Shown here piece after piece: positions 97 to 33,328 of a stretch of DNA of 48,847 nt. The notes beneath the pieces were generated by a model. It did no database searches, was not told the origin of the DNA, and saw only the letters and a program-made list of their open reading frames with translations. The stretch is from Firmicutes bacterium HGW-Firmicutes-21 (GTDB lineage Bacteria > Bacillota > Clostridia > Oscillospirales > CAG-382), in contig PGZT01000003.1 in NCBI GenBank assembly GCA_002841455.1, forward strand, positions 1 to 48,847. The letters are read 5' to 3'. The first letter of the stretch is position 1. Every line of letters begins with the position of its first letter. The position numbers and the translations under genes were made by a program.

Positions 97-133
97 AAAA
101 AATAATCCCCTTCCGATTAAACGGAGGGGGATT
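97..133 (-). terminator. Rho-independent terminator of the seven-gene ABC operon
   Basis: On the minus strand a 12-bp stem (arms at 133-122 and 115-104, one A-C mismatch, 6-base loop) is followed by a U-rich tract (102-97). It lies 19 bp past the stop codon of the last permease gene and closes the operon that begins near 12.6 kb. Confidence 0.85.
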
Positions 134-151
134 ACTGTGTTTTGTGCTGTT

Positions 152-1225
152 TTATCCTGTAATACCGCTTCGCTCAACGCCTTCGATAAGCGTTCTTTGA
201 GCGAACAGATATATTAAAACGAGCGGTGCAAGAATTAAAAGTCCGCAGGTGTTCCTAATCGCCGCTTCATAGGTCTCCTTTGAAGATTCCGATGTAGCAA
301 GCGAAGCCGGAATTGAAACTATGTTTGGTAACAGTACATTCTTTGTCTTGTCGGTAAAGAACAGCGAGGTGTAAAACATATCCGACCATTGCCATGAGAA
401 TGCAAACATAAATATTGTAACAAGCATAGGTATGGACATCGGCAGAATTATTCTGGCGAAGGTCTTTATTATACCGGCTCCGTCAACATAAGCAGCTTCC
501 TCAAGCTCATCAGGTACTCCGTTAAAGTACTGCCGCATTATGTAAATAAATAAGCCGTTCTTAAAAGCAAGACCCGTTATAGAAATTATTCCGAGAGGCC
601 AATAAGAATTAAGCAAATTATCAATTGCGGGCGTAGCTTCGGTCGAACCGAGCAGCTTCTTGATAAAGCCTACAATCCCCCAAATATCAAAATACCTGAA
701 CTTCATAAACATAGAAAGCTGTAATGTTTCATGCGGGATTATCATTGTGAGTATAACAAGCACAAAGATAATACCTTTGAAGCGGAACTTGAATTTTGAG
801 AATCCATAACCGATTATTGCGCAGGTAAGCATCTGACTCACGCCGCATAATACCGATAATGTTGCCGAATTGAACAACGCTTGAAAATATTTGTTGTCGT
901 TTATTATCGCTTTGTAGGTATCAAATGTCGGATACCTCGGTATCAGCTTAACCGTCTGGTCGACAAAATCCTCGGGGCTCATAAACGAGCCTGCTATTTT
1001 TGCGAAATAAGGAAACAGAATTACATAGGAGATACCAATCAGCAGTACCAGCCGGAAAATAATCCATATGAGCTGTTTACCGAAATAAGCGGTTAAATAC
1101 TTATATCTTAAACGCATTAAAAAAGGAGTTTTTTCCTGAGCCTTTATGCGTCTTATCGCTTCTTCCTTTTTCTGAAGCCGTTTAAGCTCCTTTTCTGCTT
1201 TCTTGTTAGAAACAGACATATTCAT
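152..1225 (-). CDS. Carbohydrate ABC transporter permease, MalG type (pair A)
   Basis: This is an inner-membrane permease subunit of a CUT1-type sugar importer. Of its 357 residues, the first 45 or so are a lysine/arginine-rich, probably cytoplasmic helix. A membrane segment at about 52-75, a periplasm-facing loop and further membrane segments follow. The ATPase-docking EAA loop is visible at 242-251 (EEAAYVDGAG), followed by the usual LPMSIPML. The length exceeds the family's usual 280 or so because of the N-terminal extension and an insertion around 185-205. It is the last gene of the operon, 15 bp after its MalF-type partner, with a GGGGGG-rich ribosome binding site. No ATPase is encoded nearby, so energy presumably comes from a shared MsmX/MsmK-type ATPase elsewhere (inference). 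The substrate is unknown. Confidence 0.9.
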   Translation of the reverse strand: MNMSVSNKKAEKELKRLQKKEEAIRRIKAQEKTPFLMRLRYKYLTAYFGKQLIWIIFRLVLLIGISYVILFPYFAKIAGSFMSPEDFVDQTVKLIPRYPTFDTYKAIINDNKYFQALFNSATLSVLCGVSQMLTCAIIGYGFSKFKFRFKGIIFVLVILTMIIPHETLQLSMFMKFRYFDIWGIVGFIKKLLGSTEATPAIDNLLNSYWPLGIISITGLAFKNGLFIYIMRQYFNGVPDELEEAAYVDGAGIIKTFARIILPMSIPMLVTIFMFAFSWQWSDMFYTSLFFTDKTKNVLLPNIVSIPASLATSESSKETYEAAIRNTCGLLILAPLVLIYLFAQRTLIEGVERSGITG

Positions 1226-1240
1226 AATTCTTCCCCCCTT

Positions 1241-2248
1241 TTATGTGTCGCGCTTTTGATAGAATACATACGCCGACATTATTCCGCCGATGACTAATAA
1301 AACAATTATAACTATCAGAAAGTATATCCATGACATTGCGGTAGCTCGAACATTTCCGTCGGTTTTACCATAAATTTCCGCTATGTATGTCATAACCGTG
1401 TTTGATTTTGATGTGAACGAGTCAATAACCGTATAAACCGTATTAACGAGTATCATCGGGCTTATCATCGGGAATGTAATCTTCCAAAATGTCTCCCAGG
1501 ACGAAGCTCCGTCAATATGACAGGATTCATATATCGCAGGTGAGATTGATTGCAGACCCGCAAGGAAGATAAGCATCTGAACACCCGATTTGTTTATAAT
1601 TCCATAAACATTTTGAACCATTTCGGTAACATAGGTTACCAATCCTTCTCCGACCTTCATACCGGCGAAGAACCTTGATACATCGACTGCGGAAATAATC
1701 TGGCTGCCTACATCGGTAGTGTTCATTCCTCCCTCGTTTAACGAGGTTACGCCTTCCATTGCCTGAGCTATGGCATTTTGATAATCGATAGACTCAATTA
1801 TTCCGGTTGAAACGATAACGGGAATAAAGAATATCGCTCTGAATACCGCTCTTCCCTTCATCTTCTGATTCAACAGCACCGCCATAAATAATGAAAATAT
1901 TACTATTGCCGGTATATTAAAGATTAAATCCTTAACGCTTGAAACCAAAATTTGATAAAACTTCGGATCGTCGAGCAGAGCATATCTGTAGTTATCCCAG
2001 CCGACAAACTCAAGAATGTAACCGCCGCCGCCCTGTATTTTTATTTTGTTAAATGAAAATACAAGTGATTCGTAAATCATCGGAAGATATATCAGAAAGA
2101 ATCCGATCAGAAACGGTGCGATAAACAGCCAGCCCATTCGTGCTTTCTGCTTTTGCAGGGAGATAGCCTTGCGTATCTTACCCTGCTTTTTCGGAGTTAA
2201 GGGTTTATCTCCGGCTTTCTTTACTTTTTTCTTAACTGCCTTATCCAA
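1241..2248 (-). CDS. Sugar ABC transporter permease, MalF type (pair A)
   Basis: This is the partner permease of the MalG-type protein just downstream. It has 335 residues: a basic N-terminus (1-37), a first membrane segment at about 40-60 and several more after residue 105. The EAA loop is degenerate (YESCHIDGA at about 240-248), but the following FPMISPM is retained. A roughly 60-residue insertion at about 152-215 between two membrane segments is unusual for the family and should face outside. The start codon is TTG with GGAGGAGGG about nine bases upstream. It lies 15 bp after the DUF5696-like gene. It is one of two MalF-type permeases in the operon, and the two differ clearly in sequence and length, so they are not a recent duplication. 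Confidence 0.9.
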   Translation of the reverse strand: MDKAVKKKVKKAGDKPLTPKKQGKIRKAISLQKQKARMGWLFIAPFLIGFFLIYLPMIYESLVFSFNKIKIQGGGGYILEFVGWDNYRYALLDDPKFYQILVSSVKDLIFNIPAIVIFSLFMAVLLNQKMKGRAVFRAIFFIPVIVSTGIIESIDYQNAIAQAMEGVTSLNEGGMNTTDVGSQIISAVDVSRFFAGMKVGEGLVTYVTEMVQNVYGIINKSGVQMLIFLAGLQSISPAIYESCHIDGASSWETFWKITFPMISPMILVNTVYTVIDSFTSKSNTVMTYIAEIYGKTDGNVRATAMSWIYFLIVIIVLLVIGGIMSAYVFYQKRDT

Positions 2249-2263
2249 CTTTTACCCTCCTCC

Positions 2264-5143
2264 TTATCCTATTTTCCCGTTGATATCGACTTTGATAAAG
2301 TCTTCTGCGGGAATCGTGAATGTCTCGTTTCCGATTGTAACGGTATAGTCCTTTAATAAGTAGTTTATCAAGAAGTATGTACCGTTCTCATAGGTAACTT
2401 TTACGACCTTATTTTGATTGTCAAGGAACATATGTGATACTATCGGGCACTGCTTTAAATCCTTGAACGCATTATTAAGCCTGTGGTAAGTATCTATCAT
2501 ATCCTTAACCCAGATGTTATACCTTACCGAATAATACTTCTCAAAAGGCTGATAATAATACTGCTTCAGCTCAGAGGTGTTCTCGTATGCTATAACAAAA
2601 TAGGGAGATGCACCGTTCTCGATTGATTTAAGCAGTGTATACCGGTAATCGCCTGCAAGGTTGATCGCTGTGCCGGCATATTCCTTATATCCATGCAGTA
2701 CCATGCCCATAAAGGGTATTGTTGCCGAGGAATACTTGTATCTGGAGTCGTCAAGCGGTATATCGAGTATATCGGTGGCATATTTAAGTGTGTATGCATT
2801 TCCACCCGATACCATTACCTTGCCGTTATCCTTTTGTATCTGGTCAAGCAGCTTGGTTACCAGCTTCTTTGAGTCCTCTCTGTGCAATGTATCCTTTGTG
2901 TTGAAGTCGGAGGATAGTGAATCTCCGAGTGAGGCAACCGAAATTGCTCCCACATTGTATTTTTTATACTCATTATATGTATTGGTATAAAAACGAGACA
3001 TTGCATTAGGTGAAATAATACCTAAACGAGAATAATTGTAGCCCTGGAATAGAGGGTCGTATACCTTTTGACCGGCAGGCCTCTCGTCAATGGTTTTTGT
3101 CATATCCTTTGAGGGATTAAAGCCATCGAATGCTTTTTTTGTCATTGCATAAGCAAACTCGAAATCAGGATAAATAGTAACCTCATTTTTGGAAGCATAA
3201 TCAAGTAGCTTATAGAATCCCTCGTCCCCGCCCAAAACATCCACAATATCCACACCGTTGGGGACCCGCGAGATCATACCGTCATTTGCCCAGCCCTTTA
3301 GCTTCACATTAACATTGCTGATACCGTTATCCTTAAGTAAATTAAGGATATCAATTGTATCGTCAAAGCTTGTCATCGAAATGGTTTTTGTAACAGGTAT
3401 ACCCAGTACCCTCTTCATGACCTCAAGAGCTCCGAGTGTCTCGATATAAAGAGGAATGTCCTCGGTTGTTATTTCAAGCTCGGTCAAAACTCCTTGTTTT
3501 ATCAGGTAATCCCTGTAAACATTCGCCATTCCCGAATAGGAAATGTCATCGGAAAGTATAAAATATCTAAGCTTGTAATCGCCCGTATATTTACGCTTTG
3601 ACTCCACCGTCCACATAGCTTCGGTCGATGAAGTGGCGGAAATACCACCGCTCAATACATATGAATCCTTAGGTCTTGGGTTGAACGAGGTATATACAGA
3701 GGTAAACATATGCAAGGCTCCACCGTTATCCACCGTTATATTTGCGAGTGAATCACCGCTTTCAATAACGGCAAGGTAGCCGATTTTAAGGTCGTGCATA
3801 ACCGTCTCAAGAGAAGTGGTTTCCTCACCTGTCTCCTCGTCAACTACCGTAATTTCTTCAATAGTTGAATATTGATCCTTGACTATTTCCACAACACCGA
3901 AAACAGGTAAACGCATAAGCTCCTTATTAGCACCGAGTATTTTATGGAATGCGTAATCCTGCCCGTACAGCGAGTTGGTGGTCTTGAATCCCACTCCCTT
4001 TATGTTTTCAAAATTGATCAATGCACCCGAACCGTCGGGTGTAAACACATATCCGCTGTTGTTTACATTACCGCTCCCCGCATAGGGTAGCAGCGTTACA
4101 TTGGACAGCTTATAGCTCGAGGAGTCGAAACGGATATTTCCCGCATTACATCTTACGGACAATCCCATTTCATCGATTGTATACTCGAGAGCAAGCTTAA
4201 ACAACGGAGGTGCTTTATCATTGGATGTATAATCGGTCTCCGCATGGTCGGTATCCAGCTGTTCAAACGAATAATTTGTGTACAGCTTAACCATCTTCTC
4301 AAGTCTCATAAGCTCCTTGGGAGTAATATGGGGCTCGCAGACATAAACAGGAAACTTCTCACTGATAGGATAGGTATTAAGCATTTCCACAACAGTCTTT
4401 TTAGTTAAGTTGGTATCACTGGGGTCCTTCAATTGATAGAACGCCATAAACTGCCTGTTGTCTCTTGCCACAGGAGAATTTGCCAATATCTGATCTCTCA
4501 GCTCCTCAAGCTTCTCCGATCTGATAAGTCGAGGTACGAGGTATTCAATTTCCTCGCGTCCCAATGTGTATTCAATTCTAATGCCGCTTCTTATCGCTTT
4601 TATTACTATTTGATCGTTTTTAGCCGCATCGACAAATGATTCAAAGCTTGCAGAGGTATCATTCTCTGAATAATCGACAATGACCTGCGAATACAGTTTG
4701 CTTTTAATCGAATCGGTTGTCTTTGTACCGGTTGAGGACTGGCTGGAACCTATGTTATACGGGTTTGTAGAAAAGTAACCTATATATTTATAAATTCCGT
4801 CGGCATCCAGCTCATATTCCCCGTCGTCGTTGGGTTCCGTGAGCTGTAATATAACAACCTCGGCGGTCAGCGAATCAACATATAACGCATAACCGTCCTT
4901 GACAAGCATACAGACCATCGGCGAAATTAATTCGTTGCCTTTGATTCTGTCATTGATTGACTTAAAGCCGGTCGACATATATGCCGGAGTCAGAGCCTTC
5001 CAGATGTCTTCCTCGTCTATGCTCTCCAAGGCGGATGACGCAGCACCGGATTCCTCGGCAAAAACATCGAGTGACATTACCGGGACAAGTATTGTCAGAC
5101 ATATAAGAAGTGCCGTCAGCTTTTTAAATAAATCTTTTTTCAT
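2264..5143 (-). CDS. Large secreted DUF5696-like protein
   Basis: I recognise this as resembling the DUF5696 proteins found beside sugar ABC permeases in Clostridia and Paenibacillus; the match is from memory. It has 959 residues. The start at 5143 gives a clean signal peptide (MKKDLFKK, then a hydrophobic stretch, ending near VFAEES) and an AGAGGAG site eight bases upstream; a GTG nine bases further upstream overlaps that site. There is no lipobox cysteine. The middle is beta-rich. The region at about 580-900 has alternating strand/helix character and acidic residues (YPDFEFAY, GDSLSSDFN) that recall a TIM-barrel glycosidase, but no catalytic pair can be assigned. Position between two permease pairs suggests it works on the imported substrate outside the cell (inference). 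Confidence 0.75.
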   Translation of the reverse strand: MKKDLFKKLTALLICLTILVPVMSLDVFAEESGAASSALESIDEEDIWKALTPAYMSTGFKSINDRIKGNELISPMVCMLVKDGYALYVDSLTAEVVILQLTEPNDDGEYELDADGIYKYIGYFSTNPYNIGSSQSSTGTKTTDSIKSKLYSQVIVDYSENDTSASFESFVDAAKNDQIVIKAIRSGIRIEYTLGREEIEYLVPRLIRSEKLEELRDQILANSPVARDNRQFMAFYQLKDPSDTNLTKKTVVEMLNTYPISEKFPVYVCEPHITPKELMRLEKMVKLYTNYSFEQLDTDHAETDYTSNDKAPPLFKLALEYTIDEMGLSVRCNAGNIRFDSSSYKLSNVTLLPYAGSGNVNNSGYVFTPDGSGALINFENIKGVGFKTTNSLYGQDYAFHKILGANKELMRLPVFGVVEIVKDQYSTIEEITVVDEETGEETTSLETVMHDLKIGYLAVIESGDSLANITVDNGGALHMFTSVYTSFNPRPKDSYVLSGGISATSSTEAMWTVESKRKYTGDYKLRYFILSDDISYSGMANVYRDYLIKQGVLTELEITTEDIPLYIETLGALEVMKRVLGIPVTKTISMTSFDDTIDILNLLKDNGISNVNVKLKGWANDGMISRVPNGVDIVDVLGGDEGFYKLLDYASKNEVTIYPDFEFAYAMTKKAFDGFNPSKDMTKTIDERPAGQKVYDPLFQGYNYSRLGIISPNAMSRFYTNTYNEYKKYNVGAISVASLGDSLSSDFNTKDTLHREDSKKLVTKLLDQIQKDNGKVMVSGGNAYTLKYATDILDIPLDDSRYKYSSATIPFMGMVLHGYKEYAGTAINLAGDYRYTLLKSIENGASPYFVIAYENTSELKQYYYQPFEKYYSVRYNIWVKDMIDTYHRLNNAFKDLKQCPIVSHMFLDNQNKVVKVTYENGTYFLINYLLKDYTVTIGNETFTIPAEDFIKVDINGKIG

Positions 5144-5158
5144 GTTTGACACTCCTCT

Positions 5159-7369
5159 CTAAGTCCAGTATCGGTATTTCAACTCAACGAATATATTATA
5201 TCCGAAGGTAAATACCTTAGTTAAAAGATATGAGAACAATACGCCGATAAACATTATAAAGGCAACACCTATAATTGTTCCTATGGTTGTTAAAATATTC
5301 TTTCCGAGTGTATAATCGTGAATAACCATCATCGCAAAGAATATCAGCAATCCTAACCATGTAAACGCCATTGTGCCTATCATTACTAAAATGGGAATCT
5401 CGTCACCGATTACGAAGTTTGACAGAATAACTGTCGGGAATATCAATAAAGGAACCGGAACGATGGCATAGCACGATGCGATATATACATCCTTAAAGGT
5501 TCCCTCGCCGTCAAACAGGGTTGTAAGACACCAGTTAGCTATAGCCCAGAGGAACAACGGAAGCACTACGGAAAATATCTCAAATATATATGAGCTTCCG
5601 TATGGGTTCTGATCTGCCAGGTATCCCTGCCCCATTGACTGGTATAGGAATACAAAAACCGTCAGTCCCAGCCAGAAGGTACCTCCCCTGACCGACCCTC
5701 GATTCTCGTGCTTTAAATCCCAGAATCCGTCGAACGGATGGAAGATGACATGAAAACCGTATAAAATCTCAGAAGCGAAGGTGCGTTTCTTCGTCAGCTT
5801 CTGCCCTTTTTTGTTATATGTGTTAACAAACTTGAAGAACTTGCTCAACAGAATAATTAAAAGGACTACGATTAACGGCACTACCCAAACATTATTCTCT
5901 ATCCATTCCTTGCGGTACATACCGTATGCCATTGAATAGTTCTTCGTATCATATGCATTCTTGAAGTATTGCATTGCCGCAAGATATTCACCGTCACGAT
6001 ACAGGCTCTGTCCGATTCCTACATATGCACTGTCATAGTTATTGTTATATTGGAGAATGCTTATATAGTAATCAACGGCAGCTTCGTAATTCTTATCCTC
6101 GATGTTTTGAATAGCAGACGCAATTAGGTCGCCGTATGCGGTTCTCTTATAAACCGTAATCGAGCTTGAGGCTCTGTCAAGAAGTAAAATGTTCGAGCCT
6201 TGATATGTAATAGCCGCAAGTGATTGATTATTACCTATCTGATCACCGAAATCGCCGAATACATAGAGCAGGTTTCCGTTGCTGTCATAAGTAAATATTT
6301 TGCTACGCTTACTGTCTATTATACTCCAGGTGTTGTTTGGCCCGAGCGCTACATCAACGATTGTAGAAGGTCCGTTAATAGGAAACTCCGGAGTCGGTCT
6401 CATATTGACCTTAACCTCGCCGGAAGGCGGCCAGAATCCGTTACGGTTCATTACATCGCTTCCGTTGGGGTTCAGCTTTTTAACGGGAGCGTAATCACCC
6501 GATTTTGATTTGCCTCGAATTGCCGCTAAAACATCTTCGGCATCTATCGAAGCGGTGGTTACATAAAGGAATCCATCCTTGTCGATTGTAAGGTTGTTAT
6601 ACTCCGTGGGAACATACTGTATGCTCTTTGCTTTTTGCTCATATGTCTGGAATCTGCGCCAGAACAGCTCAATCGCACTGTATGTAACCTTCTGAGGTCC
6701 TATAAATCCGTTAAAGGAGCCGTCTCGGTTAAGAGAAATTACTCCGTAATGGGTTGTTGAGGAAACTACATATACACGACCCGCTCTGTCCGCCGCTACA
6801 GCTACGGGCTTATAAATGCTGTTGTCGGGCATAACATCACTGGAAGGCTCCGGGACTATATCCACGAAATTACCCAGCTTGTCAAAGACAACGATTCTTG
6901 ATTTCTCGGTATCCGCAACATATATCTCGCTGTCGGTAACAAATACACCCTTCGGTCCGCTGAGTACATCGGGAATTCCGTTATTATTGGTAAATGTACT
7001 GATAATAAGCCGGATATTGTAATTCTCATCTAAACCGACTATGCGGTTGTTGCCTGAATCGGCGATATAAACATGCTCTAAATCGTCAACATATATGTCC
7101 ATCGGGCCGTTGAGATCCAGCATATCCGTAAACTCGTACTTCTGCCTTGTTATTTCACTCGCACCGTTGTTATACGAATACTTGATTGATCTTGAATCAA
7201 TAACGGTAAGAGGAACATATGCATCCGGGCTCCGCTGCATCCAGCCGTATACATCATATGTATAGGTTGTATAGGGAACGATTGCAACCGCACTGAAAAT
7301 GCTTCCGGATAGCAATATAAAACATATTGTAAGAAGTACAATTCTAATAAGCTTGGTTTTGTTTCTCAT
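5159..7369 (-). CDS. NHL-repeat / TPR / Yip1-domain membrane protein
   Basis: This is a 736-residue modular membrane protein. A membrane anchor lies at about 8-30. An extracytoplasmic beta-propeller of NHL-type repeats spans about 85-400 (YIADSGNNRIVGLDE, VTDSEIYVADTEKSRIVVFD and similar). Two TPR-like helix pairs follow at about 416-480 (NYEAAVDYYISIL, GEYLAAMQYFKNA), then a membrane segment at about 493-513. A C-terminal Yip1-type domain from about 545 has around five membrane helices (FHPFDGFWDLKHENRGS at its start). Propellers and TPRs usually bind proteins or glycans, so a scaffold or sensor role for the transporter is plausible, but I know of no experimental function. It lies 17 bp after a permease and 6 bp before the start region of the DUF5696-like gene, with AAAGGAG as ribosome binding site. 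Confidence 0.85.
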   Translation of the reverse strand: MRNKTKLIRIVLLTICFILLSGSIFSAVAIVPYTTYTYDVYGWMQRSPDAYVPLTVIDSRSIKYSYNNGASEITRQKYEFTDMLDLNGPMDIYVDDLEHVYIADSGNNRIVGLDENYNIRLIISTFTNNNGIPDVLSGPKGVFVTDSEIYVADTEKSRIVVFDKLGNFVDIVPEPSSDVMPDNSIYKPVAVAADRAGRVYVVSSTTHYGVISLNRDGSFNGFIGPQKVTYSAIELFWRRFQTYEQKAKSIQYVPTEYNNLTIDKDGFLYVTTASIDAEDVLAAIRGKSKSGDYAPVKKLNPNGSDVMNRNGFWPPSGEVKVNMRPTPEFPINGPSTIVDVALGPNNTWSIIDSKRSKIFTYDSNGNLLYVFGDFGDQIGNNQSLAAITYQGSNILLLDRASSSITVYKRTAYGDLIASAIQNIEDKNYEAAVDYYISILQYNNNYDSAYVGIGQSLYRDGEYLAAMQYFKNAYDTKNYSMAYGMYRKEWIENNVWVVPLIVVLLIILLSKFFKFVNTYNKKGQKLTKKRTFASEILYGFHVIFHPFDGFWDLKHENRGSVRGGTFWLGLTVFVFLYQSMGQGYLADQNPYGSSYIFEIFSVVLPLFLWAIANWCLTTLFDGEGTFKDVYIASCYAIVPVPLLIFPTVILSNFVIGDEIPILVMIGTMAFTWLGLLIFFAMMVIHDYTLGKNILTTIGTIIGVAFIMFIGVLFSYLLTKVFTFGYNIFVELKYRYWT

Positions 7370-7386
7370 TTATCATACTCCTTTCG

Positions 7387-8307
7387 TTAATCCTTCATTC
7401 CGGATGTTGACATCGTCTGGATAACATTGCTCTGTGCTACAATAAATACCGTAATCGGAACAATCATCATAACAACCGTGGAAGCGGCTCCTACACCCGA
7501 ACGGGCTATACCGGAGGTTACGAGCTGACTTATTGCGTAGTTAAAGGTCTTTAGCTGCTCGCTGTATATGTACATATTCGCACCCGTATTCCAAAGATCC
7601 CTGAAGGCGAATATAACAAGTGTTACCCAAGCGGGTTTTACCATCGGCATCGCTATTTTCCAGAAAATCTTGTTCTCGTTCGCGCCCTCAAGCCTTGCGC
7701 TCTCGAGTACCGCGTTGGTAACATTTGTCTCCATAAACTGCTTCATTAAATAAAGACCGAATGTGGTACAAAATGCGGGTACGATAATTGCAAGATATGT
7801 GTCAACCCAGCCTAACAATGACATTGTGATGAAGTTGGTAATGCCGGTTACGGTTGCGTTGAACATCAACGAATAAATAATAATACTGAACAAAAACTTT
7901 CTGCCTGGGAATGCAATTTTTGCGATTGCATATGCCGCATATGACGAGAACAATACATTTCCTGTTGTTCCCACTACCGAAATAAGCACTGTATTGAAAA
8001 TGTATCTTGAGAACGGTACCCACGAGCTGCCCATAAGTCGGAACAGATCCCTAAAGTTCTTCATGGTTGGGTTTACAACGAAGAATCGGGGCGGGAACAC
8101 CCATAACTCGTCAAGCGGTTTTAAAGACTGTGCGACAGCGTATACCATCGGTAAGACCATTATTGTTGCAACGATACCGAGCAATATGTATATACCGACA
8201 TCGCCGCCCGCCGAGCGGGTTACCGAACGCTTGAAAGCGTTATGTCCCTTGTTCTTCTGTCTTTGCTCCCAATAAGCTCTGAGCTTTGCGGTTATCTTTG
8301 AAATCAT
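7387..8307 (-). CDS. Carbohydrate ABC transporter permease, MalG type (pair B)
   Basis: This is the second MalG-type permease of the operon, with 306 residues, close to family size. A basic N-terminus is followed by about six membrane segments. The EAA loop at 199-210 (AVLESARLEGAN) is followed by IAMPMVKPAW, the usual ATPase contact region. Its GGTGGG ribosome binding site lies inside the last codons of the preceding MalF-type gene. The two genes are only 3 bp apart, so translation is probably coupled and the two proteins likely form a heterodimer. The substrate is unknown. Confidence 0.92.
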   Translation of the reverse strand: MISKITAKLRAYWEQRQKNKGHNAFKRSVTRSAGGDVGIYILLGIVATIMVLPMVYAVAQSLKPLDELWVFPPRFFVVNPTMKNFRDLFRLMGSSWVPFSRYIFNTVLISVVGTTGNVLFSSYAAYAIAKIAFPGRKFLFSIIIYSLMFNATVTGITNFITMSLLGWVDTYLAIIVPAFCTTFGLYLMKQFMETNVTNAVLESARLEGANENKIFWKIAMPMVKPAWVTLVIFAFRDLWNTGANMYIYSEQLKTFNYAISQLVTSGIARSGVGAASTVVMMIVPITVFIVAQSNVIQTMSTSGMKD

Positions 8308-8310
8308 ATA

Positions 8311-9246
8311 TTATGAACCCACCTTTCTCAGCATTTTGGTTACCAAAAGGTTAGCTCCTATCATCATAAAGAACAATATAGTTGCTATTGCGGAGGCGTA
8401 TCCCATTTCAAAACGAGCTCCTCCGTAGTCATCCAAATGATGCATTATCGTATGCGCAACATAGTTCGGGCTGGGGAAACCGACAAGTGCCGTAATATGT
8501 CCTCCGAATCCGAAGGAACCCGTTATAGCAAGTATGGCACCGAGCATCATCTGAGGACGCATTGTGGGAAGAGTTATAAACCATAGCTCCTGCCACCTAT
8601 TCTTTACACCATCAACGGCACCTGCCTCGTAGAGCTCCTGATTTACAACCTGGAAGCCTGCGATGAAGGTAAGGAAGGATGCGCCGAGCGAGGTCCACAG
8701 AGCAACCGCTACTATAAGCCCGAATATGTACTTCTCATCCTGAAACCATAAAATCGGTTTGGGTATTAAATTCAGCTTCAAGAGCCATGCATTTGCGAAG
8801 CCGTATTGGTCGGATGAAAAGAAGATGTTCCAAATAAGATAAACACTGCCCGAAATCGACGGTGCGTAGAACATAACCGTAACAATCGCACGAATTTTCG
8901 GTCTTAGCTCATTTATGAACCATGCGAAGAACAAGCTTAAAAGATACGAACCCGGTCCCGTTATCGAAGCGAAAACGAGTGTATTTTTTATAGCAAGCAG
9001 GAAAATATCATCATCCAGGAGGAGACGAATATAATTATCGAAGTAAATTAATGTAGGAAACTCCAACAGGTTGAAGGTTGTAAAGCTGAGTATTACCGAT
9101 AAAAGCACCGGAACTACCGTAAATATGAAGAATAACAGGAAGAAGGGAAGAATCATTACATAGCCTACCCAGTTTTTCTTCATTTCTATTATTGTCCATC
9201 TTGCTTTTGAAATGTCGCTTCTTATTATCGCTTTTTCTTTTGGCAT
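8311..9246 (-). CDS. Sugar ABC transporter permease, MalF type (pair B)
   Basis: This 311-residue permease has about six membrane segments; the first is at about 28-55. The EAA loop at 204-213 (ELYEAGAVDG) is followed by ITLPTMRPQM. It has the ordinary size and layout of CUT1 MalF-like proteins without the extended first domain. It follows the solute-binding protein gene by 18 bp and has a GGGGGGAG ribosome binding site. Adjacency to the binding protein suggests that pair B is the primary partner of that protein. Whether pair A also docks the same binding protein is an open question. Confidence 0.92.
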   Translation of the reverse strand: MPKEKAIIRSDISKARWTIIEMKKNWVGYVMILPFFLLFFIFTVVPVLLSVILSFTTFNLLEFPTLIYFDNYIRLLLDDDIFLLAIKNTLVFASITGPGSYLLSLFFAWFINELRPKIRAIVTVMFYAPSISGSVYLIWNIFFSSDQYGFANAWLLKLNLIPKPILWFQDEKYIFGLIVAVALWTSLGASFLTFIAGFQVVNQELYEAGAVDGVKNRWQELWFITLPTMRPQMMLGAILAITGSFGFGGHITALVGFPSPNYVAHTIMHHLDDYGGARFEMGYASAIATILFFMMIGANLLVTKMLRKVGS

Positions 9247-9264
9247 TGTGTATCTCCCCCCTTT

Positions 9265-12200
9265 CTATTGCTTATCACTCAGATTTTTTTCGAACGCCGC
9301 AAAGTCCTCTGCCGTTGGTAAACCGAACTCTCTGCGTTTTCGTGTTAGCTCGTTGTTTATATCAATTATATATGACAGCAGTTTTTCAACCGGTTCATCA
9401 CCGTCGTTGTATACTCCAAGGAACGCGAAGTTTGCATAACGACCGATAATATAGCTTCCCGGGAATTCGGGGACGCATTGTACCGCGTTGAACTGCGCTC
9501 TGAGGTTATCGTATTCATCTTTAGACCAAGCCATGTTCTCGAGAGCCTCAAGATTTGCCGTATTCTGCTTTGCGGACGGACCGAGCAACGCAACCATTTC
9601 GTTTCCGTATGCGCTCTGAACCTGCGCACTGGTCCACCACTGCATATATGTCCATGCGGAGAAAGCGTTTTCATCGGTTACCGATCTCATCATTATCATT
9701 GTTGAAATCGAACCTAAGGTTGTGTTGTTAATGCTCCCGTCGGGTGACAGTGTTCCGGGTAACGGGGTAAACTCCCACAGACCCTTTATTTCCGGTGCAA
9801 AAACGATGAGCTGGTTATATGATGTATAATCCATAATTGCGAGCGGCATCGTTCCCTGACGGAAACGGTTCGGGAAGCTGTAAACAACAGGGAAATCATA
9901 CATTGTAAACAACTGACAGACCTCTTTAAAGGATGCGAGTGAAATATCGGAATCAAGGTTTATTTTCATTCCGTCGGTTTTGGGTTTTAAATTACCCTCA
10001 ATGTCCGTATAGGTATAACCCAAATCCTTAAGACTCTCGTCCGTATAACCGTTTTTATAGTATAGATCCATATAACGGTCGTAATCGCCCATACCAAACA
10101 GCGTATCGTTTTGCTGGTACATAAGAATCATAGAGCCGGCAGTACCTGCAGGGAACCCTATATCAAGCATATTCGCTTGGAGTGTATATATAATATCGTA
10201 GAAATCGTCCCATGTGTTAGGAACATCGATACCGAGCTCGACAAATATATCCTTGCGATAGAACATCATAGAGAAGCTCATATTCTCGGGTAACGCATAT
10301 GTCTCGCCGTAAAGGGTTATCGGTGTCATAGTAGCGGGTGCAAAACGTTGTTTTGCGACATCAAAGCTGTCTACATCATCTATAAACGAGCTGTAAATCG
10401 GGTGATCCGCCCATTGCGATAAATCATTAAAATTATAACCTATGTTTGTGTTACCGGTTGTTGTATTCAGCGATTTAACCGCCGATCTAATAGCGTAGTT
10501 AACCGGATCACCGGGTCCGTTACCCATGGAAACATCGGGTCCTGTTCCGGCAAGCGTTGCGGGGAGGAGTGTTCCGCCCACAACCAATTTAACGGTAACG
10601 GGAATATTGTATTTTGCCGAGAAATTGTCGTCCACCAAAGCTCTTATTATCTGAGCCTGTTCTCTTGAGGTTGCTGTCCAGACCTCTATTGCAACCGCTT
10701 CCACATCCGCAGATGTAATTCCCTCGGCAAGGGTGCCGATTGAGTTATAATCCGCAAAGAAGGACATAAAGAACTTTTGAATCTCTCCCCAAAGCGATTT
10801 GAAGAATCCGGGCTCCGCAACGGGTGGGTCGGCATTAACCGACTGTATACATATATAATCCAAATAGAGCGGTTGATTTTGTGTTGAGGTCAACCAGGTA
10901 CCCAAAGCACCCAGGTAATCCTTAAGCGTAGACATACTTCCCGCTATTGTTACGGGGTATGTTCCCATTCGCTCAAGATAAACGGCTATTTTATTAAGGG
11001 TGGCGGTATGTTCGCCTTTATCTCCGGTTATCTGTCTGAGCTTGTCGGAGACCTCGTTAAGAATTTCCGCCTGCGCTTTCAGACCCTTTACAACATCGGG
11101 GATAAGCCTCTCGAATCTGTAATCACGGTATTCGTCCGGCTTGGGACCTGTGATCATTAATATTTTACGGTAATGAGCATTTATCTGCGTCAGGCTGTTT
11201 TCAACTATGCTTAAAATCTCTGCCATATCGCCCAAAACAACCTCGAGGCGAATAGTTCTCTTACCCTTCTCAAGATAAAATTTAAATTCACGGCTACCGT
11301 CTCCGAGCGGCTTGGTCTGCCAATTATCGGAGAAGCTGAAACGCAAATAGGAAGCCTCCTCAAAAGGAACGCTGCCGTCTATATATATTCTTCTCGAAAC
11401 ATACGATCCGTCATATATGTTCTGCTTAGAACGGGGAATTATGTTATAGAATCCGTCCTCCGGAACATCAATTACCCATTCAATCCACTGACCTACATAC
11501 TGCCACTTATCGCCGCCGATTTGGTTAAGTCTGATAAGTGCGGCGTCCTGCGGTATGGTAATGGTTGAGGATCTGTCGTTAAGCTGATATATTGTTCTCT
11601 CGGAAACAATTGTAGGATACTCTGCCTGTATCATAACAACCTTGTCACCGTCATAGTCCGAAGCATTTGCATTCTGCTCCAAATATTCGTCATAGGTGGG
11701 AATAGCCTCTGACTTCATAAGAACTATCTTTTTTACAGCCATCGGCTCTTTTATTGTTTGCAGCGTTAATAGATTTGCACCCTTTTTAAAATAGAATTTA
11801 AGCGGGTTGTTATAATAACCTGTGGAATCATATAAAAAGCTGTCTGTCCAGGTAGAGAGTAAGGCTTTGTCCGGTCTTATTTCGTTGCCGTTGGAATCCT
11901 TTAAGAAAAGACGCTCGCTACCGTCGATATTATTCTCGTATTTAAGTATTAAATCTATAAATTCCTGAGTGTTTGACTTATAGAAGGTTTTTTTGCCGTT
12001 TTCATCGAGTATCGGCTTACCGTTCTTGTCAACGTGTGTGTATTCATCCGCCCATTCCTTTGTAAGAACGATCGACCGTGCCTCTTTAAACGGAACTTTG
12101 TTGTCGATAAGCACCATACGCTCAATGGAGGTGGACTTACCTTCGCTCACTATGTTCCCTTCGTCGTCGGCAACTTCAATATTACCGGAATAGTACTCGA

Positions 12201-12603
12201 TAAAGATGCTGTAAAGAGCATCTTCCTCGATATCCACATTCCAGCTGATTTTTCCGTCGTCACCTATAAGCAGCACTATACCGTCCGCACCGCCGTACCC
12301 GTTTATTGCGTTAACGGTAGCGGTAGTTTCATCGCTTATGTAGTCGGCAAGCGCTAACTGTATCTCGGTTTCGCCATCCTTGACATCGGCGTGCAGCTTT
12401 AAATAATCGCTGTAAACCACAGAGGTCAAAATGTTTTTAATCTCTGCCAAAGAGGTGCGAACCAAGGAATCGGAGCCGCCCACGCTCTCCACAAGAGCGG
12501 ATGCGGCATATCCACCCGCATCATATAAGGCACCGGTAGCAAGCAATGTAAATGCCAGCATACCGACCAACAATCTTGTTGATATTTTTTTGACTTTGGT
12601 CAT
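9265..12603 (-). CDS. Giant extracellular solute-binding protein with carbohydrate-binding-like modules
   Basis: This 1112-residue exported protein is about two and a half times the size of ordinary sugar-binding proteins. A signal peptide covers about 1-35. Two beta-sandwich-like regions follow (about 50-300 and 320-470), with similar features such as WNVDIEEDALYSI and WVIDVPEDGFYNI that resemble carbohydrate-binding modules. A helical linker comes next (about 475-610). The C-terminal third (about 630-1090) reads as a family 1 solute-binding domain (GTGPDVSMGNGPGD, NTWDDFYDIIYTL, AFSAWTYMQWW). There is no lipobox cysteine, which is unusual for a monoderm binding protein, so retention may depend on an uncleaved anchor or on glycan binding. 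It is the first gene of the operon, with GGGAGG upstream of ATG. Confidence 0.9.
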   Translation of the reverse strand: MTKVKKISTRLLVGMLAFTLLATGALYDAGGYAASALVESVGGSDSLVRTSLAEIKNILTSVVYSDYLKLHADVKDGETEIQLALADYISDETTATVNAINGYGGADGIVLLIGDDGKISWNVDIEEDALYSIFIEYYSGNIEVADDEGNIVSEGKSTSIERMVLIDNKVPFKEARSIVLTKEWADEYTHVDKNGKPILDENGKKTFYKSNTQEFIDLILKYENNIDGSERLFLKDSNGNEIRPDKALLSTWTDSFLYDSTGYYNNPLKFYFKKGANLLTLQTIKEPMAVKKIVLMKSEAIPTYDEYLEQNANASDYDGDKVVMIQAEYPTIVSERTIYQLNDRSSTITIPQDAALIRLNQIGGDKWQYVGQWIEWVIDVPEDGFYNIIPRSKQNIYDGSYVSRRIYIDGSVPFEEASYLRFSFSDNWQTKPLGDGSREFKFYLEKGKRTIRLEVVLGDMAEILSIVENSLTQINAHYRKILMITGPKPDEYRDYRFERLIPDVVKGLKAQAEILNEVSDKLRQITGDKGEHTATLNKIAVYLERMGTYPVTIAGSMSTLKDYLGALGTWLTSTQNQPLYLDYICIQSVNADPPVAEPGFFKSLWGEIQKFFMSFFADYNSIGTLAEGITSADVEAVAIEVWTATSREQAQIIRALVDDNFSAKYNIPVTVKLVVGGTLLPATLAGTGPDVSMGNGPGDPVNYAIRSAVKSLNTTTGNTNIGYNFNDLSQWADHPIYSSFIDDVDSFDVAKQRFAPATMTPITLYGETYALPENMSFSMMFYRKDIFVELGIDVPNTWDDFYDIIYTLQANMLDIGFPAGTAGSMILMYQQNDTLFGMGDYDRYMDLYYKNGYTDESLKDLGYTYTDIEGNLKPKTDGMKINLDSDISLASFKEVCQLFTMYDFPVVYSFPNRFRQGTMPLAIMDYTSYNQLIVFAPEIKGLWEFTPLPGTLSPDGSINNTTLGSISTMIMMRSVTDENAFSAWTYMQWWTSAQVQSAYGNEMVALLGPSAKQNTANLEALENMAWSKDEYDNLRAQFNAVQCVPEFPGSYIIGRYANFAFLGVYNDGDEPVEKLLSYIIDINNELTRKRREFGLPTAEDFAAFEKNLSDKQ

Positions 12604-12691: not shown

Positions 12692-12720
12692 ATACTAACA
12701 TGATAGCTTAAATTTGTCAA
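12692..12720 (-). promoter_or_regulatory. Promoter of the seven-gene ABC operon
   Basis: On the minus strand a consensus TTGACA (12720-12715) and TAGTAT (12697-12692) are separated by 17 bp. The transcript would have a leader of roughly 80 bases. I see no convincing catabolite-responsive element overlapping it. No other promoter of this quality is evident within the tightly spaced operon. Confidence 0.75.
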
Positions 12721-13206: not shown

Positions 13207-14184
13207 TTAATTACCGACCGAAACGGTAATAATAAAACCGTCTCTGTTATTGCCCGAAACAGTGTATTGAAGTTCACTCGGAACGCTTATCATAGTAGAC
13301 ACACCGCTCCCTGCCGCAGCGTAATAAATCAGGTATGTATTCCCGCTGTCCTGATCGGTATATGAAAGCGGATTGCGATAATCGTAGCTCTTTATTAGTT
13401 CATTATACTCATCCAGGCATAGATTGTTCGCTTTCATAAATTTCGCGTGAGGAATTCCCACATACCTATAAATCGCCGACGAGGAGGCAGCTCCTGTATA
13501 CTCTGTTTTATCGGACGGATATCTTAAAACATAACCGTAGTTCTGACAATGGTCGGCTATCCATAAATAAACACCCTCTCCCATTTTTCCGTTCTCGGAC
13601 GGGAACACGGTGAGCCGTACCGCTCTGCCCGACGCAAGGTCGGCGTTAGTAGCAAGCGTTTTTTTGCTTAAAAGACTCTCCAGTTCGGTATACGAGTCGT
13701 TAACCATAATATCGGTTACACCGGTAGAGTCATGGAAAGCCTGTAGCATCCGGTTAAGGGCGGCAAGCGCTTCCTTCTCCAGCGTCAGCTTTGAGCCGCT
13801 GAGCTTATATATTCCCTTCAGCCTGTTGTCATAAATATTAACCAGCTCTAATTTGCTTTTATCAGGTGCGATTGCAGCTTCCGTATTTTTGACAATAATC
13901 AAATCACCCTCGGATAAGGAGGAGCTCTGTATTGCTATTTCTTTATACCCCTTGATAATAACAGTTTCAGCTTCGCTCGCTTCAACCGATTCATCGCTAA
14001 TATCTTCGCTTGATACAGCGTACGGAATACTGACCGACGATATAATGATACCGCTTTCCTCATCGGCAAATATATTGCCGAACATCAACACCGCCGCAGT
14101 TATAATAACTATAACAATGCAAATCGCAGCGGTTATAAGATACATATACAGATATTTATCCTTTTCCATACTCTTTTTAGCCAC
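13207..14184 (-). CDS. Membrane-anchored VanY-like (M15B) protein, probably catalytically dead
   Basis: This is a 325-residue protein with one membrane anchor at about 13-37 and an extracytoplasmic C-terminal half. The final 150 residues keep the scaffold of VanY-type D,D-carboxypeptidases: NYGYVLRYPSDK at about 213-224, the following TG, RYVG after the second motif, and LCLDEYNEL. The first metal motif, normally SxHxxGxAxD, aligns to ADLASGRAVR, losing His and Asp. The second, normally ExWH before xRYVG, aligns to SSAI, losing Glu and His. A peptidoglycan-binding or regulatory pseudoenzyme is therefore likelier than a peptidase (inference). The start is GTG with AAGGAG upstream. It lies 70 bp after nifJ and may be co-transcribed with it. 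Confidence 0.75.
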   Translation of the reverse strand: MAKKSMEKDKYLYMYLITAAICIVIVIITAAVLMFGNIFADEESGIIISSVSIPYAVSSEDISDESVEASEAETVIIKGYKEIAIQSSSLSEGDLIIVKNTEAAIAPDKSKLELVNIYDNRLKGIYKLSGSKLTLEKEALAALNRMLQAFHDSTGVTDIMVNDSYTELESLLSKKTLATNADLASGRAVRLTVFPSENGKMGEGVYLWIADHCQNYGYVLRYPSDKTEYTGAASSSAIYRYVGIPHAKFMKANNLCLDEYNELIKSYDYRNPLSYTDQDSGNTYLIYYAAAGSGVSTMISVPSELQYTVSGNNRDGFIITVSVGN

Positions 14185-32188: not shown

Positions 32189-33328
32189 ATGAAAAAGCTA
32201 TTATCGTTACTGTTATGTTTTGTGTTGATGCTCTCCATGTGCTTGGGTGCCGTAGCCGCATATACCCAGGATAACACAATTAGGAGCATTGTACCGGGTA
32301 CTACTGTTTCCGGATTGAAGGATTTACTGGCATCGGTGCAGAATGTTTCCAAAGACGGCTTTGTGTTACCGGGAAGCGAGCCGGTCGGTACCGGTTATAA
32401 CATTATCCGCAGTGACGGAACCTTTAAAGCGGTCGTGCTTGCGGATGTTAACGGAGACGGCAGAATCACAGCCGCCGATTATCTGATTATCAAGCGACAC
32501 TTCCTTGGTACATATGTGCTTGAAAACGAATATCTGCTTGCAGCCGATATAGATGAGGACGGTGCGATAAGGTCGATTGACTATCTTGCGGTTAAGCGGC
32601 ATTTTATGGGTACTCACGACATCGGCTCTTCCGATAATGCGTCAGAGGTTCCTATATTGCTCTATCATCATATTTTATTGGATGCGGATAAGGACAGCTC
32701 GCAGTGGCGGAACAACGATATCACCATTTCCGTAACCGAGTTCAGACGGCATATGCAATTGATTAGGGATATAGGCTATACGGTAATAACAATGGAGGAA
32801 GCGGTTGACTACATAAAGGGAACCCGTACAATTCCTGTTAAAAGCGTTGTATTATGCTTTGATGACGGTTACAAGTCAAATACCGAATATGCGGCTCCTA
32901 TTCTGCGTGAGTTTGGGTATCAGGCTACTATTTTCAGTATAATACAGCCCTTCTTCGGTACATATCAGCCGGTCTATGACCCGACAAAGCTCCAGCATAT
33001 AACTCAACAGGATTTATTGTTGAATGCCGATGTTTTCGATCAGCAGTGCCACACCTTCTCCAATCATAATAATCTGCCTCAGCAGTCGTATAATTATGTG
33101 TATAACGACTTAATGCAGAGCCAGAACGCATACCCCTCAAAATTCTTTGCATACCCTTACGGAGATTATAACACTACGGTTATCAATGCGGTTATCGCAG
33201 CCGGCTTTGAAGCCGCCTTCACAACCGTTCAAAGAGCTGCCGTTGTGGGCGAGAGTATATACGAGATACCGAGGTATACTATAACAACACCCCTTACGGA
33301 CCAGGCATTCCTTAATTTCTTCAATTAA
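32189..33328 (+). CDS. Secreted polysaccharide deacetylase with N-terminal dockerin
   Basis: This 379-residue exported enzyme has a signal peptide (about 1-26). A dockerin pair of calcium-binding F-hands follows (DVNGDGRITAADYLIIKRH near 87-105 and DIDEDGAIRSIDYLAVKRH near 123-141). A CE4/NodB deacetylase domain starts near 152 (VPILLYHHI), with metal-site CFDDGYKSN near 223, HTFSNH near 288 (His-x4-His) and FAYPYGDYN near 316. CE4 enzymes remove acetyl groups from peptidoglycan, chitin-type or xylan sugars; the substrate is not evident here. The dockerin implies attachment to a cohesin scaffold, cellulosome-style, but no cohesin is encoded in the window. GGAGATACGG precedes ATG. Confidence 0.93.
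   Translation: MKKLLSLLLCFVLMLSMCLGAVAAYTQDNTIRSIVPGTTVSGLKDLLASVQNVSKDGFVLPGSEPVGTGYNIIRSDGTFKAVVLADVNGDGRITAADYLIIKRHFLGTYVLENEYLLAADIDEDGAIRSIDYLAVKRHFMGTHDIGSSDNASEVPILLYHHILLDADKDSSQWRNNDITISVTEFRRHMQLIRDIGYTVITMEEAVDYIKGTRTIPVKSVVLCFDDGYKSNTEYAAPILREFGYQATIFSIIQPFFGTYQPVYDPTKLQHITQQDLLLNADVFDQQCHTFSNHNNLPQQSYNYVYNDLMQSQNAYPSKFFAYPYGDYNTTVINAVIAAGFEAAFTTVQRAAVVGESIYEIPRYTITTPLTDQAFLNFFN

Follow-up and report, generated by a model that had tools for sequence, protein, structure and literature searches.

Uncultured Firmicutes degrade much of the plant fibre in animal guts, and their sugar uptake is poorly known. In the SusCD-type uptake of Bacteroidetes, surface capture proteins feed one importer. 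Among the CUT1 importers with a shared MsmX/MsmK ATPase are YesOPQ, GanSPQ and AraNPQ of Bacillus subtilis (PMC7658222, PMC5730181), and the residues D77, R104, E110 and K154 are reported to be common to multitask NBDs (PMC7658222). In Anaerocellum bescii, the cello-oligosaccharide permease pair of Athe_0595-0598 is served by two substrate-binding proteins (SBPs) and an unlinked MsmK, and all oligosaccharide ABC transporters of this species are reported to share one multitask ATPase (PMC12838199).

Here we analyse a seven-gene locus of this general kind that is found in the window, by which we mean the whole stretch of 48,847 nucleotides analysed. It corresponds to contig C69 in an assembly of 1.55 Mb (92 contigs, 91% complete). 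A first-pass annotation had listed seven tightly spaced genes, and the ORF list of the window bears this out: seven minus-strand ORFs lie at 152-12603 in the order given by that annotation, with spacings of 3-18 nt. Together with the signals that flank them, these are:

103..134, minus strand, intrinsic terminator just 3′ of MalG_A (13-bp stem, 6-nt loop, TTTTTT)
152..1225, minus strand, MalG_A, CUT1 permease subunit of pair A (Pfam BPD_transp_1; EAA-type loop ELEEAAYVDGAGIIKTFARIILP)
1241..2248, minus strand, MalF_A, CUT1 permease subunit of pair A (BPD_transp_1; EAA-type loop AIYESCHIDGASSWETFWKITFP; TTG start uncertain)
2264..5152, minus strand, DUF5696 protein of 962 aa, predicted to be secreted (Pfam 4e-157; GTG start uncertain)
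5159..7369, minus strand, NHL-TPR-Yip1 protein (NHL 2e-12, Yip1 8e-12; TPR weak, 0.013)
7387..8307, minus strand, MalG_B, CUT1 permease subunit of pair B (BPD_transp_1; EAA-type loop AVLESARLEGANENKIFWKIAMP)
8311..9246, minus strand, MalF_B, CUT1 permease subunit of pair B (EAA-type loop yEA.a.DG.kNRwQELw..TlP.M)
9265..12603, minus strand, giant SBP of 1112 aa (PF01547 genome search; predicted MalE-like fold)
12692..12720, minus strand, putative sigma-70 promoter TTGACA-17-TAGTAT with TG before the second hexamer (10/12 consensus)

The same annotation had read one promoter and one terminator. The terminator, with its 13-bp stem and TTTTTT, stands. The TTGACA-17-TAGTAT site, about 90-117 nt 5′ of the SBP start, is a plausible operon promoter, in a class that is not above chance (39 promoter-like matches found in the region, 37.8 expected). 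An Rfam search of the window matched a tRNA only, and no regulatory RNA was found. Immediately upstream of the operon, positions 13207-14184 of the minus strand encode a 325-aa protein without a Pfam match, and about five relatives have similar proteins upstream.

Conservation of the locus

DUF5696 is above cut-off in 104 of the 197 genomes of the window's order and in 39 of the 398 of a phylum sample. Among 156 loci fetched via DUF5696 (56 in the order, 20 in the phylum) or via MalF_B (80 named, some of which are contigs already among the DUF5696-fetched ones), 104 have the order SBP, MalF_B, MalG_B, NHL-Yip1, DUF5696, MalF_A, MalG_A with a fused NHL-Yip1, and 28 have the full order with NHL-TPR and Yip1 as two genes. 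The remaining loci are nearly all contig-end cuts or have a broken or undetected gene. Genes other than those used for fetching were assigned by profiles built on the order set and the window. All 56 fetched loci of the order have an identical gene order except for contig cuts. The search for co-occurring neighbours, which the first-pass annotation had set as a test that could refute it, thus finds the genes conserved together.

Most of the named carriers are uncultured Clostridia and Oscillospiraceae that come from the gut of ruminants, rabbits, horses and chickens. Of the sampled genomes of a large gut order, about half carry the locus. It also occurs in many further families of Firmicutes, where the carriers apparently include Paenibacillus-like and Caldicellulosiruptor-like genomes. 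One carrier family is probably Caldicellulosiruptor, judging by an adjacent GH26 mannanase that has a CBM matching PDB 1pmh, and another, with genomes of 6.5-7.3 Mb, appears to resemble Paenibacillaceae. The composite locus is real and widespread, and apparently old. In five genomes of 2-3 Mb from families f71 and f86 (G258, G236, G277, G330, G360) we found about four to five B-type permease loci each together with additional A-only blocks, in part accompanied by LacI regulators and glycosidases; these read as specialised paralogous copies.

The literature searched holds no described system of the same composition, in agreement with the first-pass annotation, and no mention of DUF5696. Searches for YIP1 with an ABC permease, for NHL with Yip1 and for a CBM35 binding protein found nothing relevant there.

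Two permease pairs and an unlinked ATPase

All four permease subunits of the operon are of the MalF/MalG type of CUT1 importers, with BPD_transp_1 and a kept EAA-type loop. The window genome has nine BPD_transp_1 proteins, four of them in the locus and the remainder on three other contigs, where the neighbourhoods indicate a Pst-like pair, an Opp-like pair and one amino-acid-type permease. Furthermore, a MalF_B profile search of the window genome and of two further genomes of the same genus, G116 and G597, found no MalF-like protein beyond the two of the locus; at 91% completeness, the assembly of the window's genome may lack others, and the two further genomes, at 93% and 97%, agree.

The first-pass annotation had proposed either one SBP common to the A and B pairs or mixing of the two. 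Both pairs do lie in one apparent operon and are conserved together, and the operon of the window's lineage has only one SBP gene. We nevertheless consider it unlikely that, as a basic design, A and B subunits form one heteromeric channel or the giant SBP feeds both pairs, although in the window's lineage pair A might use the giant SBP as well. The A block (NHL-Yip1-DUF5696-MalF_A-MalG_A) occurs without the B block at L111-L113 and, in an additional region set, with no B block in view at L210-L214 and L219. MalF_A would pair with MalG_A, since the block stands alone with both permease subunits. The order of the blocks can also be swapped, with A before B at L115, L118 and L120. In many other lineages, moreover, pair A is followed by its own SBP, which argues against a single shared one: a conventional SBP lies directly after MalG_A at L111, L211, L212 and, among others, at the complete loci L108, L110, L114, L215, L217, L238, L239, L242, L251 and L252, where it has about 440-490 aa, so that each pair there has its own candidate SBP. 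Conventional SBPs also follow in tandem, three at L107 and two at L116. Using eight seed sequences (five from the outside-order set and three from the window genome), we found that 18 loci outside the order have a conventional SBP on their own strand at a distance of up to 600 nt, compared with 3 of 124 primary loci inside it, besides which one secondary in-order locus, L220, also has a flanking conventional SBP. A and B are, by their genes, most likely two separate CUT1 permeases.

The closest relatives of pair B outside the system are at L247-L250 in family f39, with 383-390 bits to the MalF_B profile, compared with 170-195 bits for the best ordinary CUT1 permeases. These loci (L247:9798-17091 and its counterparts at L248, L249 and L250) combine a B-like pair with a CBM35/CBM6 protein and two OB_MalK ATPases, and neither DUF5696 nor a recognised binding protein is in view there. 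We rejected them as the same system, given the two MalK-type ATPases and the lack of DUF5696 and a giant SBP in view; they are possibly a related minimal importer.

As the first-pass annotation had noted, no ATPase gene lies inside or adjoining the operon, a situation that proves ordinary. The genome encodes a single OB_MalK protein, an orphan of 371 aa on contig C37 beside ABC-F-like and S4-like genes. Over its whole length it can be aligned with B. subtilis MsmX (6yir, 458 bits), and counting along this alignment shows that D77, R104, E110 and K154 (MsmX numbering) are kept. It therefore has both marks of the multitask MsmX/MsmK proteins, the four signature residues and a gene unlinked to a transporter, and as a predicted shared ATPase it would supply the MalK-type component that CUT1 importers have in the operon or share. 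The missing ATPase is probably, on these sequence features, this lone multitask MsmX-type protein encoded elsewhere in the genome. With the EAA loops kept, an unlinked MsmX-type ATPase present and OB_MalK ATPases beside the nearest pair-B relatives, the operon without an ATPase is no anomaly. OB_MalK is above cut-off in 164 of the 197 genomes of the order, and some genomes of the order with DUF5696 (e.g. G024, G034) have no OB_MalK match.

It has to be weighed whether the energy comes instead from a dedicated LolD-type ATPase pair upstream of the SBP, as family f26 might suggest. At most of the f26 loci L202-L208 (e.g. L202:10716-12351), two ABC ATPase genes lie directly upstream of the giant SBP gene or overlap its start; the second ATPase carries an AbrB/MazE-like C-terminal tail. 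This arrangement is confined to that one family, whose genomes also encode an OB_MalK ATPase, and in genus g35 the MsmX-type gene lies a few kb further upstream of the ATPase pair. The closest B-type permease relatives, furthermore, come with OB_MalK ATPases. We regard a LolD-type motor in place of MsmX as very improbable, and rejected such ATPases as the general motor, as they are seen upstream of the operon only in f26.

Binding proteins and surface proteins

As a whole protein, the giant SBP has no Pfam match at E<=1, and a genome search with PF01547 recovers it (2.6e-14). Its AF2 model (pLDDT 87) contains a MalE-like domain at 634-1096, with Z of about 31 to MalE-type SBPs by structure comparison, which is the binding-protein part of a CUT1 importer. 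The model has two CBM35-like beta-sandwiches (about 90-300 and 320-456) and a helical bundle (458-578) as well. The profile of its N-terminal-half family matched, among PDB sequences, the cycloisomaltooligosaccharide glucanotransferase 5x7g (E 3e-8, profile positions 312-410). The Pfam family CBM_35 matches 16 of 20 relatives (best 1.3e-6) and the window protein below cut-off (0.036). The protein has a signal peptide without a lipobox, unlike the dispersed SBPs of the genome.

SBP_bac_1 has 9, 12 and 8 matches in the three genomes of the genus (window genome, G116 and G597). Without the giant SBP and a Pst-linked match, the window genome has seven scattered SBP-like proteins of 432-506 aa, six of which carry a lipobox and three of which are above the Pfam cut-off, the others being weaker. 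One, on contig C54, adjoins sugar-isomerase-like and dehydrogenase-like genes, and none of the seven lies beside an evident sugar-hydrolase cluster. At seven or more scattered sites, the window genome (L230-L235), G116 and G597 encode binding proteins of 430-510 aa, mostly lipoproteins, without permeases. Since the genus has only these CUT1 permeases found, and yet 7-11 unlinked SBPs, the locus may be a shared hub for them, with pair A a likelier port than pair B. On the simplest reading, the conventional SBPs would have left the operon in the window's lineage, and the permeases would have stayed as a hub.

In the NHL-TPR-Yip1 protein, the NHL and Yip1 profiles match above cut-off, and an NHL propeller (about 40-410) is followed by TPR, a TM helix at 494 and a Yip1 membrane domain (539-708). 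Hydropathy gives an N-terminal helix before the propeller/TPR region and a basic stretch after helix 494, and this stretch suggests that the propeller and TPR face outside. In about 30 relatives, NHL-TPR and Yip1 are separate genes; there the NHL protein retains two helices and the Yip1 protein mostly has four or five, so the fusion in the window joins two proteins that are distinct neighbours in other genomes.

The window's DUF5696 protein has PF18952 as its only Pfam match. Its AF2 model (pLDDT 88.5, pTM 0.85) consists of a beta-supersandwich, a (beta/alpha)8 barrel and a C-terminal sandwich, and is best matched by the GH129-type structures 5opq_D and 5wzq_A (Z 29.8 over 569-587 residues), with GH101 and amylases well below (Z 19). 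The overall fold is accordingly that of GH129 (Z 29.8, 587 residues). PF11308, the GH129 family profile, has no match in the window genome, and the DUF5696 profile matched only NagBb among PDB sequences, weakly (E 0.008). Comparing the DUF5696 family by hhalign with the only GH129-profile protein of the phylum sample gave a significant alignment in the C-terminal domain only, besides a weak one around R758.

In NagBb, the GH129 nucleophile position is occupied by D435, which is conserved as D486 in ZGAL_3152 (PMC5698469). This position corresponds to about residue 740 +/-1 of the DUF5696 protein in a register that rests on motif alignment with a GH129-profile protein, not on superposed coordinates (GAWLIDGVTS compared with GAISVASLGD, and a conserved Arg 18-19 residues on). 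Because hhalign gave no significant barrel alignment, we made the statement on catalytic residues independent of the register. The window protein has V739-A740-S741-L742-G743 at strand 4 and M780-V781-S782-G783-G784-N785 at strand 5, and no acidic residue at 739-743 or 780-785, so that the GH129 catalytic Asp is not found; with neither D nor E throughout 739-743, the strand-4 result is independent of a register error of 1-2 residues. Likewise, none of the aligned DUF5696 proteins of family f1, the window's included, is acidic at strand 4, and most have no acid at strand 5.

These features suggest that DUF5696 of the window's family is a glycan-binding pseudo-enzyme, which would bind and not cut. 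With a probability that we put well below one half, the protein may instead be active at the surface as a GH101/GH129-clan glycosidase, cutting captured chains down to importable size, and the machine one that captures and processes. The GH129-type fold of the model favours this, as does the acid found at 740/741 in 18 of 31 sequences of the outside-order set (which includes L220, actually from the order), ten of the 18 also having an acid at 782/783. Inside the window's order, only 12 of 125 have the acid at 740/741 (Fisher p 3e-8, a value that ignores shared ancestry), and the window's own family speaks against activity at both strands. Acids are well conserved elsewhere in DUF5696, at E571, D663, D749 and E845, so an unusual mechanism is conceivable. 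Short DUF5696-like proteins of about 580-600 aa, unlinked to the transporter genes, also occur (L221:4010-5740 and 9429-11180, and other matches of about 600 aa); some of them lie close together.

Outside the order, the locus is flanked by GH3, GH26, GH42, GH10, GH5, GH27 and apiosidase genes, and 28 of 97 flank proteins there are binding proteins. Within the order, the flanks are mostly housekeeping genes, which would fit a reading in which NHL-Yip1 and DUF5696 form a glycan sensor or a polysaccharide assembly unit with the permeases secondary, as would a pseudo-enzyme-like DUF5696 and a membrane protein of unknown role. We give this reading little weight in view of the near-invariable linkage to permeases and binding proteins and of the sugar-hydrolase neighbours outside the order. 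In the window itself, positions 32189-33328 encode a polysaccharide deacetylase with a dockerin domain, and elsewhere in the window genome L230:1-1605 encodes a GHL10 protein with a weak dockerin; the organism may assemble enzymes in cellulosome fashion.

A proposed uptake system and its known counterparts

Taken together, we favour, with a probability of roughly 0.6, a two-importer surface uptake system for plant-type oligosaccharides that is driven by an MsmX-type ATPase, holds glycans through the SBP and DUF5696, and acts as a hub in the genus. It builds on the computed gene content, conservation, module separation, folds, ATPase type and absence of other CUT1 permeases. Importer B would consist of the giant CBM35-MalE binding protein with MalF_B/MalG_B, and importer A of MalF_A/MalG_A, which are always encoded with NHL-TPR-Yip1 and the secreted GH129-fold DUF5696 protein. 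The Yip1 domain would hold the extracellular NHL-propeller/TPR part in the membrane, and the propeller/TPR protein would be the dock for secreted proteins at the channels. Glycan chains would be kept near the cell surface by the CBM-like domains and the DUF5696 barrel, and the single unlinked MsmX-type ATPase of the genome would drive both permeases via their MalK-docking loops. In the window's genus, both permeases may also serve 7-11 dispersed binding proteins, pair A being the likelier port. The assembly of these parts, surface capture, the sharing of the ATPase and of binding proteins, and the substrate class, plant-type oligosaccharides, are what we infer. Of the surface capture-and-process machine proposed at first, the single gene unit is upheld, and capture fits the parts (a CBM35-like/MalE-like SBP, a propeller/TPR protein and a GH129-fold protein). 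More tentatively, and as a possibility that we hold less likely than its opposite, the operon could be the cell's sole oligosaccharide gate, with two CUT1 channels, a multitask ATPase, a DUF5696 protein turned receptor after loss of its catalytic acids, a propeller/TPR/Yip1 scaffold and many unlinked SBPs, and would then represent an undescribed Gram-positive class.

The locus places DUF5696, bacterial Yip1 and NHL-TPR proteins in a first concrete context. As some genomes have no CUT1 channels but these two, it becomes testable how an orphan SBP finds its channel, and the Caldicellulosiruptor-like relatives should permit genetic tests.

SusCD-type uptake is alike in concept only: it shares no homologous parts with this locus, which encodes ABC importers in a Firmicutes envelope. 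YesOPQ, GanSPQ and AraNPQ are closer, as they have a MalF/MalG-type pair, a MalE-type SBP, an operon without an ATPase gene and an orphan multitask ATPase with the same signature residues; unlike them, the operon described here has two permease pairs, a 1112-aa CBM35-like SBP, NHL-TPR-Yip1 and DUF5696. Athe_0595-0598 is a precedent for SBP sharing and differs in its one permease pair and separate SBPs, with no scaffold or GH-fold protein described (PMC12838199). The DUF5696 protein shares its three-domain fold with NagBb (5WZN) and ZGAL_3152 (5OPQ; PMC5698469), at Z 29-30 over 570-590 residues; unlike these, it has 10-15% identity to them, no PF11308 match, a catalytic Asp that is not found in the window protein and a place in a transporter operon. 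The channels and the motor are of known kinds. The novelty lies in their regular association with a giant SBP that bears CBM domains, a propeller/TPR/Yip1 membrane protein and a GH129-fold protein, and in the indications that some genomes have no CUT1 gate besides this locus.
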